Assembly: GCA_022566015.1 (NCBI GenBank)
Contig: JADFJT010000019.1
Location: 1-35,912 of the forward strand
Length of the DNA stretch: 35,912 nt
Direction of reading: 5' to 3'
Origin: Pseudomonadota bacterium
GTDB lineage: Bacteria; Pseudomonadota; Gammaproteobacteria; GCA-001735895
Shown: positions 6,165 to 34,860 of the stretch, piece by piece
Layout: each line of letters starts with the position of its first letter
How positions within the stretch are numbered: position 1 is the first letter of the stretch
The notes under the pieces: generated by a model
Database searches by the model: none
Told to the model about the DNA's origin: nothing
Seen by the model: the letters and a program-made list of their open reading frames with translations, nothing else
Translations under genes and position numbers: made by a program

Positions 6165-6668
6165 CTAGGTGTCCTCTTCAATCAGCGGTACCTGTCTTCG
6201 GTGCATTTCTGGCGTAGGTTCGGCTTCCAGCGTTTTTATCAATTCTTCAAACGCCTGAATATCTTCGAAACTAAGATATACCGAAGCAAATCGAATATAG
6301 GCCACCTGGTCCAGTCGTTGTAATTCGTGCATGACCAGTTCGCCGATCTTGCGCGACGAAATTTCACGCGAGTCGACCCCGATCAATTGCTTCTTTATGT
6401 GGCTAATCGCATCTTCGATCTGCTCTACCGCAACCGGTCGTTTTTCGAGCGCCCGCATCATGCCGTTGCGTAAGCGTAATTCATCAAATGCGTCGCGACT
6501 ACCGTCATTCTTGATTACCACAGGCATATTAAGCAACGGTGTCTCATAAGTAGTGAAGCGCGATTCGCAGGATACGCACTCACGTCTACGGCGCACCTGA
6601 GCCGATTCCTGGGCAAGCCTGGAATCGACTACCCGGGTATCAGGCGTACCGCAAAAGGGACATTTCAT
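6165..6668 (-). CDS. nrdR: Transcriptional repressor NrdR
   Basis: ATP/dATP-responsive repressor of ribonucleotide reductase genes. The 167-residue protein has an N-terminal zinc ribbon with CPFC at 3-6 and CVSC at about 37-40, and an ATP-cone domain beginning near residue 49 (VVIKNDGSRDAFDELRL). It is directly upstream of ribD and downstream of glyA, a typical gammaproteobacterial position. The C-terminal tail after residue 150 is variable, as in the family. Confidence 0.96.
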   Translation of the reverse strand: MKCPFCGTPDTRVVDSRLAQESAQVRRRRECVSCESRFTTYETPLLNMPVVIKNDGSRDAFDELRLRNGMMRALEKRPVAVEQIEDAISHIKKQLIGVDSREISSRKIGELVMHELQRLDQVAYIRFASVYLSFEDIQAFEELIKTLEAEPTPEMHRRQVPLIEEDT

Positions 6669-31803: not shown

Positions 31804-32039
31804 AGGGCCCCTCTATTGGAAAATTTCATCGTTACACACGGATTAAGCTGGCTCAATTGTCGAAGTGGTTTGCAGCCTAATAGCAAAGTCGATCTGTCTA
31901 TCGAGTCGGATTTTTCGCTAGCTGGTTCGATATTTGTTAAATTTCAATCTGTTGAAAATATTTTAAGTCTATATAATACCGCGTTTTGCCGAACCCACTT
32001 AATACTCATCTATTAAACCTGTCCAAGGATACTATTTGT

Positions 32040-32705
32040 ATGAAATTAATCCACCGCAGCCTCATTATTCCCGCTCTTCTTATCGCGTTTGGCGCACTGG
32101 CTGAGCAACCATTGACCACCGATAAAGACAGACTCAGTTATGGGCTTGGGATGATAATTGGAGAACGCGTACTCAAACAATATGGTGAAGTCGACTACCA
32201 GATATTACTTCAGGGTATAATCGCGCAACATCAGGGCAAACAGACTCAGATGAGTATGACAGAAGCAGGACAAACTTTGAGTAGGTCACAACAGAAATTA
32301 ACCCAACAAAAATACGAGGCAGTGATGGAAAAAGGTAGCGCTTATTTAGCAGAAAATGCGAAGCTGGATGGCGTGACAGTCACCGAATCTGGTTTACAGT
32401 ATTCGGTAATCACCCAGGCCGATGGCGCAAAGCCTTCAGCTACCGATTCTGTGACAGTACACTACCGCGGTACGCTGCTCGACGGCACCGAGTTTGACAG
32501 CTCTTATGCTCGCGATGAACCCACCACTTTTCCGCTCAATGGCGTAATCCCTGGCTGGACCGAGGGTGTTCAACTGATGAGTGTTGGTAGCAAATTCAAA
32601 TTTGTTATACCGTTTCAACTCGCCTATGGCGAAAGTGGTGCCGGTGCTTCGATCGGTCCTTATGAAACGCTCATTTTCGAAATTGAGCTACTCAGCATTA
32701 ATTAA
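32040..32705 (+). CDS. fkpA: FKBP-type peptidyl-prolyl isomerase, periplasmic
   Basis: A 221-residue FkpA/Mip-like isomerase and chaperone. Signal peptide about residues 1-20; dimerisation domain with KDRLSYGLGMIIGERVLKQY; a linking helix; and a C-terminal FKBP domain (about 125-220) with VHYRGTLLDGTEFDSSY, GVIPGWTEGVQLMSVGSKFK and IPFQLAYGESGAG. The start is ATG 32040, where a signal peptide begins and AAGGA lies upstream; the frame is open 18 codons further without conservation. A TATAAT at 31972-31977 may be part of its promoter. Confidence 0.93.
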   Translation: MKLIHRSLIIPALLIAFGALAEQPLTTDKDRLSYGLGMIIGERVLKQYGEVDYQILLQGIIAQHQGKQTQMSMTEAGQTLSRSQQKLTQQKYEAVMEKGSAYLAENAKLDGVTVTESGLQYSVITQADGAKPSATDSVTVHYRGTLLDGTEFDSSYARDEPTTFPLNGVIPGWTEGVQLMSVGSKFKFVIPFQLAYGESGAGASIGPYETLIFEIELLSIN

Positions 32706-32757: not shown

Positions 32758-33654
32758 ATGGTGAGTCAGAGCCTCTTTGTTCGTACCGCACCGCTGCTGT
32801 TTGTATTGCTTTGGAGCACCGGTTTTATTACCGCTAAATACAGCATGGAAAGCGCGGATCCATTCGTGTTTCTGTGTCTGCGCATGTCGATCACGGTTTT
32901 GGTATTGGTGCTAATTCTCTACCTGGTTAAAGCTCCGATGCCACGTGGGATCTGGTGTCATCGCCACGACATGATGACCGGATTTTTGATCCACTGTTGT
33001 TACCTGGGCTTCCTGTTCTGGCCCATCAAGGATGGCGTACCCACCGGCATTGTTGCCATTATGATCGGAATCCAGCCAATATTGACCATGGCGCTCGCAT
33101 CCCTCTATATAGGTGAAACGCTAAGCCTGAAAAAAGCGATTGGTTTGCTGATCGGTTTTTTAGGCATTATCGTGGTTATTTCTGGTAAGTTTGGTATCTC
33201 CCTGGGATCAAACGGCGGCCTGAGCTGGCTTGCCCTTAGCCTCTGTATTATCAGTCTTCTGGCCATGTCGGTCGGCGTTTTTTATCAAAAGAAATTTTGC
33301 CATCAGTCACAACTGATGACTGGCGCCTTGATGCAGTATATTGCTGCTGCACTGGCAACTGCGTTTTTTGCGTTCCTGTTTGGAGAGACCTGGCAAGTCG
33401 AGTGGACCCAAAGTTTCGCTATCGCGCTTATTTGGCAAGTATTCGGTCTTTCGATAGGGGCGGTCTTGTTATTGATGCTAATCATCAATCTCGGTGAAGC
33501 GGGACGGGTATCGAGCATGTTTTATCTGGTGCCACCACTAGTCGTAGTCGAGGCGCATTATCTGTTTGGCGAGACCCTGGGCCTGGTTTCAATCTTTGGC
33601 ATGGGATTGTGCATATTTGGCGTCTATCTGGTCAATCGCCCGGTAACAGGCTGA
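32758..33654 (+). CDS. EamA/DMT-family transporter
   Basis: A 298-residue inner-membrane protein with ten hydrophobic segments arranged as two EamA repeats (about 8-140 and 153-290). Recognisable segments are LLWSTGFITAKYSMESADPF and, in the second repeat, YLVPPLVVVEAHYLFGETLG. Drug/metabolite transporters of this type export amino acids or other metabolites; the substrate cannot be told. It starts 53 bases after the FKBP gene on the same strand and may be co-transcribed. Confidence 0.9.
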   Translation: MVSQSLFVRTAPLLFVLLWSTGFITAKYSMESADPFVFLCLRMSITVLVLVLILYLVKAPMPRGIWCHRHDMMTGFLIHCCYLGFLFWPIKDGVPTGIVAIMIGIQPILTMALASLYIGETLSLKKAIGLLIGFLGIIVVISGKFGISLGSNGGLSWLALSLCIISLLAMSVGVFYQKKFCHQSQLMTGALMQYIAAALATAFFAFLFGETWQVEWTQSFAIALIWQVFGLSIGAVLLLMLIINLGEAGRVSSMFYLVPPLVVVEAHYLFGETLGLVSIFGMGLCIFGVYLVNRPVTG

Positions 33655-33707: not shown

Positions 33708-33947
33708 ATGAGTCGACCATTCAATCTTGCATTATGTCTGCTTACGCTGATATTACTATTACCGGCTTTATCGTCTGGTGCCGGATTATATAAATGGACA
33801 GATGATCAGGGAAATATTCACTACGGTGACAAACCGCCTGCAGAAGCCAGGCTACAAGTCATCAAGGGCAATATCAGCAGTTTTACCACTGTGAATGTCG
33901 AACCGTTTGTGTTTGATCCGACTATTATCACGCCTACAGCCAGATAG
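33708..33947 (+). CDS. DUF4124 domain protein (5' part of a split gene)
   Basis: A 79-residue secreted protein: signal peptide (about 1-24), then the DUF4124 motif LYKWTDDQGNIHYGDKPP at about 27-44. The start is ATG 33708 with AAGGA upstream, rather than ATG 33693. The frame ends at TAG 33945-33947, but after it the same frame continues directly into a glutaredoxin (KHKTVVMYSTSWCGYC). In many Gammaproteobacteria DUF4124 and glutaredoxin are one polypeptide, so this looks like a fusion gene cut by a single nonsense codon. Confidence 0.75.
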   Translation: MSRPFNLALCLLTLILLLPALSSGAGLYKWTDDQGNIHYGDKPPAEARLQVIKGNISSFTTVNVEPFVFDPTIITPTAR

Positions 33948-33959
33948 AAGCACAAGACC

Positions 33960-34187
33960 GTGGTCATGTATTCAACCAGTTGGTGTGGGTATTGCAAAAA
34001 AGCCAGGGCCCACTTTAAACACAACAATATCCCATTTCAGGAACACGACATCGAAAAGTCGGAAAAGGCCGCCAGGGCATACAAGAAACTTAACGGCAGG
34101 GGCGTGCCTGTCATCCTGATTGGAAACCAGCGCATGAATGGTTTTAGAGCCGAAACTTTCGACTCTATTTATTACGACAGATCCTGA
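33960..34187 (+). CDS. Glutaredoxin domain (3' part of a split gene)
   Basis: A 75-residue glutaredoxin with the CGYC redox centre in STSWCGYCKKARAHF, the cis-proline segment GRGVPVILIG and a C-terminal MNGFRAETF. It starts at ATG 33960, but this is only the first methionine after an in-frame TAG. It lies in the same frame as the DUF4124 segment and has no ribosome binding site of its own. In the usual fused form it would be exported with the DUF4124 domain. On its own it lacks a signal peptide and would be cytosolic if translated at all. Confidence 0.7.
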   Translation: MVMYSTSWCGYCKKARAHFKHNNIPFQEHDIEKSEKAARAYKKLNGRGVPVILIGNQRMNGFRAETFDSIYYDRS

Positions 34188-34521: not shown

Positions 34522-34860
34522 ATGGGCATTTATATCACACAAGGTAATTTTAGCGAACAGGCTATGAAAGGAATGGTCGAAAATCCCGAGGACCGCATGG
34601 TTGCAGTAACAGGCCTTATGGAATCGATTGGGGCAAAAATTATTCAATACTATGTGACACTGGGCGAATACGACTTTCTGGTCGTTTGGGAAGCCGACAA
34701 TTTAACCGACACCGTGACTTTACTAATGGTCATAGCATCGACCGGCGGTACTAGCAACTTGAAAACAGTGCAAGCAATGACGACACTGGAAGCCAAGGGG
34801 GCCATGGAAAGAGCTAAGCAGATATCCGTCGGGTTTCAAGCCGCAGGGGCCAGCGACTAA
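34522..34860 (+). CDS. GYD domain-containing protein
   Basis: A 112-residue protein of the GYD family: the ferredoxin-like fold is indicated by IYITQGNFSEQAMKGM, then GAKIIQYYVTLGEYDFLVVW, where the G-x-Y-D signature occurs. These small alpha/beta-barrel-like dimeric proteins have no assigned activity. The ribosome binding site GAGGAGG is excellent. The gene stands alone and is followed by a strong terminator. Confidence 0.9.
   Translation: MGIYITQGNFSEQAMKGMVENPEDRMVAVTGLMESIGAKIIQYYVTLGEYDFLVVWEADNLTDTVTLLMVIASTGGTSNLKTVQAMTTLEAKGAMERAKQISVGFQAAGASD

Follow-up and report, generated by a model that had tools for sequence, protein, structure and literature searches.

Many in-frame stop codons in bacterial genes are argued to persist under purifying selection at the population scale (2021 survey, PMC7918605). 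The stops in that survey are single and in frame with constraint on both sides, and the worked example is a TAG that can replace CAG. The TAG described here is alike in these respects, but the survey keeps stops found in at least two genomes, whereas this one was found in a single genome. Ordinary nonsense pseudogenes resemble the present copy in having a private stop in a dispensable gene with repeated loss in sister lineages; the present copy differs from them in that neither half has further damage yet. The DUF4124-glutaredoxin fusions of Gammaproteobacteria have the same domains (PF13511 and PF00462), order, linker, and CGYC site as this copy, and the fusions of the same genus also have the same neighbors. 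None of these fusions has the TAG that interrupts the linker of the present copy. A literature search found no paper that treats DUF4124 and glutaredoxin together, or the fusion.

The window analyzed is a stretch of 35,912 nucleotides and makes up one contig (C149) of a draft genome. This genome measures 2.97 Mb in 197 contigs and is estimated to be 96% complete. One frame in this window (33708-34187, + strand) encodes a putative signal peptide, a DUF4124 domain, an in-frame TAG, and a complete glutaredoxin with a CGYC site (Table 1). The initial annotation stated that the identical frame continues past this TAG into the glutaredoxin, which translation and Pfam searches confirmed. The DUF4124 domain before the TAG scored 45.6 bits (cut-off 22) and the glutaredoxin domain after it scored 58.3 bits (cut-off 22.9), while the unchanged frame runs through KHKTVVMYSTSWCGYC and the complete glutaredoxin to a TGA at 34185-34187. 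The adjacency of the two halves is not due to chance, because the read-through frame can be aligned over its full length with 20 uninterrupted genes from the same genus. The start chosen earlier, ATG 33708, is well placed and has a stronger Shine-Dalgarno score than ATG 33693 (-2.8 kcal/mol). The signal peptide was called by eye, and the structure model has a predicted helix at residues 5-22. Downstream of the frame, a GYD-domain gene (34522-34860) is preceded by a very strong Shine-Dalgarno sequence, scored at -11.8 kcal/mol, and is found in only seven of the 30 other genus members.

Table 1. Features of the interrupted locus and its conserved neighbors (positions refer to the window).
Feature	Position	Strand	Evidence
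FKBP-type peptidyl-prolyl isomerase gene, conserved neighbor	31986..32705	+	
EamA transporter gene, conserved upstream neighbor	32758..33654	+	
5' half: predicted signal peptide and DUF4124, ends at the TAG	33708..33947	+	translation; Pfam; Shine-Dalgarno -5.7 kcal/mol; helix in structure model
In-frame TAG at a variable linker codon	33945..33947	+	codon alignment; linker pLDDT
3' half: complete glutaredoxin with CGYC, no Shine-Dalgarno-backed start, ends at TGA	33948..34187	+	translation; Pfam; Shine-Dalgarno scoring
GTG, earliest candidate restart codon past the TAG, without ribosome binding site	33960..33962	+	-0.2 kcal/mol

An unbroken DUF4124-glutaredoxin fusion is the ancestral form. Among the 30 other genomes of the genus searched, 20 have a full-length homologue, each in one open frame and with 58-69% identity to the read-through protein. 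Beyond the genus, 174 candidate stretches from named GTDB genomes encode a relative, and the best 80 of the 174 were retained. None of these 80 loci has a stop inside the match, and 79 are fused, mostly in Gammaproteobacteria. These counts agree with the claim in the initial annotation that a single exported protein normally contains both domains, and a split gene as the normal state was rejected on the same counts. The comparison with sister genomes proposed there found no relative with the same split; a split at this place in most homologues would have refuted the initial reading. The lone unfused locus among the best 80 of the 174 (L149:1082-1333, in a named gammaproteobacterial draft) has only the glutaredoxin part, with in-frame stops upstream in place of DUF4124, and is an independent loss of the first half. 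Two other loci (L121 and L138) come from metagenome assemblies titled Klebsiella pneumoniae, in which the family occurs at 43-46% identity amid matches from aquatic Gammaproteobacteria; these titles look wrong.

The gene order FKBP-EamA-fusion is common to most of the genus, including the window, indicating that orthologues are being compared, and the position of the fusion has been inherited vertically. The window locus has both Pfam domains in one frame and in the expected order, as well as the expected gene order, but not an uninterrupted frame. The stop inside the gene is found in the window copy alone. The residue aligned with the TAG in the codon alignment is S, Q, K, T, A, R, or V across the 20 homologues of the genus, and a single base separates TAG from several sense codons possible at this linker position. 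In a structure model built with 50 sequences (mean pLDDT of 84), the mean pLDDT is 56 at residues 71-80 but at least 91 from residue 81 onward, which makes residue 80 the last one in a linker of poor order. When stop-creating single-base changes were counted in four intact relatives, 5-14% of them lay in the linker. The placement of a random nonsense mutation in the linker is mildly unusual, not remarkable.

The gene is missing from ten of the 30 other genomes. Six of these (G003, G004, G005, G012, G015, and G025) retain FKBP and EamA, and the sequence that follows the two genes contains no remnant of the fusion. The contig of G026 stops about 200 bases past EamA, while the locus is absent altogether from G008, G010, and G021, perhaps because their assemblies are incomplete there. 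When mapped on a PheT tree, the pattern of presence requires at least five changes; for example, G011 has the fusion, which has been lost in the close sister G012. Judged by this pattern, the gene is dispensable in the genus, which makes a fresh nonsense mutation easy to accept, and the repeated loss, a point absent from the initial annotation, makes plain decay the simplest reading. The PheT sequences also had irregularities of their own. The pheT of G029 (C1:1784687-1787054; L183 and L189) is split between two overlapping frames, probably by a frameshift in the assembly. In addition, G005 has two pheT copies (C110 and C47; L179 and L188) with about 64% identity to the pheT of the window, which suggests two mixed genomes or a duplication.

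One reading of the TAG is that it is recoded throughout this organism by a suppressor tRNA, pyrrolysine, or a changed code. The in-frame TAG itself is the only sign in its favor, apart from an incomplete tRNA set. The search for an amber suppressor tRNA proposed earlier found no CUA anticodon among the 29 recovered tRNAs, a set that lacks Ala, Phe, Tyr, Glu, and Ile-GAT, such that a missing suppressor is conceivable. Against recoding, release factor RF1 is present (555 bits), and a search of the genome for PylS found no match over the cut-off. In a genome sample of 20 stretches (about 414 kb), TAG terminates 76 of 279 called genes (27%). These include AceE-like, GyrA-like, and NrdR-like proteins (identified by eye from the sequence) that are complete at their terminal TAG. 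The observation in the initial annotation that nrdR ends in TAG holds for the ORF at 6165-6668 (- strand), as does its view that wholesale reassignment of TAG is unlikely. Reassignment was therefore rejected, given RF1, the common terminal use of TAG, and the lack of a PylS match; recoding of this kind is extremely improbable, and for practical purposes general TAG recoding is excluded. Programmed readthrough predicts a stop at the same place in relatives, which was seen in none of the 20 genus homologues and none of the 79 wider fused homologues (among the best 80 of 174), and neither programmed readthrough nor a code change is supported.

The two halves of the window copy are well preserved. 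The other 20 genus sequences share 50 invariant columns, and the window copy retains every one of them, including 33 after the TAG. Neither half shows a faster rate of change than its counterpart in the intact relatives. About 79 nonsynonymous sites in the glutaredoxin half have taken no hits, which limits unselected drift over the 33 glutaredoxin columns to at most about 0.04 substitutions per site at 95%. This bound is small compared with the synonymous distance to the relatives, which is saturated, and dating of the stop by dS was abandoned for that saturation. Dating by the nearest genome (G008) was also given up: its assembly has no FKBP, EamA, or fusion, with the GYD gene found in another setting, and the age of the stop is therefore not closely bracketed. 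The retained residues imply that the stop is recent, that it is false, or that the downstream half is still used, and conservation data alone choose none among these. As expected for a nonsense pseudogene, the gene is intact in relatives and has a private stop here; relaxed constraint after the stop is not seen, which is expected if the stop is recent and so neither speaks against a pseudogene nor proves one.

Continued use of the glutaredoxin half may involve a restart at GTG 33960 or ATG 33966, giving an exported DUF4124 protein and a glutaredoxin, or leaky termination at the TAG, giving a little full-length protein. Such use is consistent with the location of the TAG at a domain boundary between two complete domains, with the 33 of 33 invariant residues retained in the glutaredoxin, and with the argument that many bacterial in-frame stops are maintained under purifying selection (PMC7918605). 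However, Shine-Dalgarno scoring found no site ahead of GTG 33960 or ATG 33966 (-0.7 kcal/mol), both scores being weaker than the background mean of -1.7 kcal/mol, and a dedicated ribosome binding site for this half was rejected. Moreover, the two codons are nothing out of the ordinary in the family, encoding a conserved Val and a conserved Met that intact relatives share, the same split is seen in no relative, and a restarted glutaredoxin without a signal peptide would remain cytosolic. Restart after the TAG is possible in principle, although no feature in the sequence has been shaped for it. Functional use of the second half by any of these routes is unlikely. A recent working gene fission at the domain boundary, yielding a cytosolic glutaredoxin apart from the exported DUF4124 piece (or traces of full-length protein through leaky termination), seems quite doubtful.

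The main rival to a recent nonsense mutation is an error in the assembly or consensus, or a minority variant picked by the assembler, in which case the fusion would be intact in the population, with a sense codon at this place. With its 197 contigs the genome is a draft, its closest kin are metagenome-assembled, and all other codons of the gene are intact and under constraint. Such errors or variants do occur in drafts of this genus: the essential pheT of G010 (L162) is interrupted by a single in-frame TAA, which probably reflects an assembly error or a variant and calls for caution with lone stops in such drafts. On the other side, consensus assemblies seldom contain single-base substitution errors, and the coding-potential survey of the same 414 kb found one other clear candidate interruption, although this survey is blind to short interrupted genes, did not hit the window locus, and gives no rate. 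The assembly explanation is rather less than likely, yet a serious contender. The other candidate is an alpha/beta-hydrolase gene in the same genome (L214:3593-4159, - strand; identical coordinates on G000 contig C163) with an in-frame TGA inside the domain. The cut gene matches only positions 2-122 of a 245-position profile and is probably a second pseudogene, indicating that interruptions in this genome are not confined to TAG.

The probable explanation is a nonsense mutation, recent and private, that is fixed or segregating in the population and lies in a gene prone to loss. An ancestrally single exported DUF4124-glutaredoxin gene would have acquired a single nonsense mutation, either in this lineage as a whole or in some members of the population. 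With RF1 expected to halt ribosomes at the TAG, at most a short DUF4124 piece would be exported and the glutaredoxin half would be made rarely or never, placing the window copy of a dispensable gene at an early stage of loss. Two points in this account are inferred: the base is taken as real, and the second half is taken to yield no useful protein. What stands against the nonsense mutation is that the perfect conservation past the TAG also fits a false stop or a second half that is still translated, along with the mildly unusual placement in the linker. The initial annotation offered a recent stop, an error, or readthrough; readthrough gained no positive support, while a recent mutation and an assembly error both stand and are separable only with reads. 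More generally, recoding should be invoked for a single stop in a conserved gene only after reads and sister genomes have been checked. If the stop is real, the gene has been caught very early in its loss, in a genus where it has vanished several times while its neighbors stayed. The exported glutaredoxin would then be dispensable in this genus, and the case would otherwise be an ordinary one.
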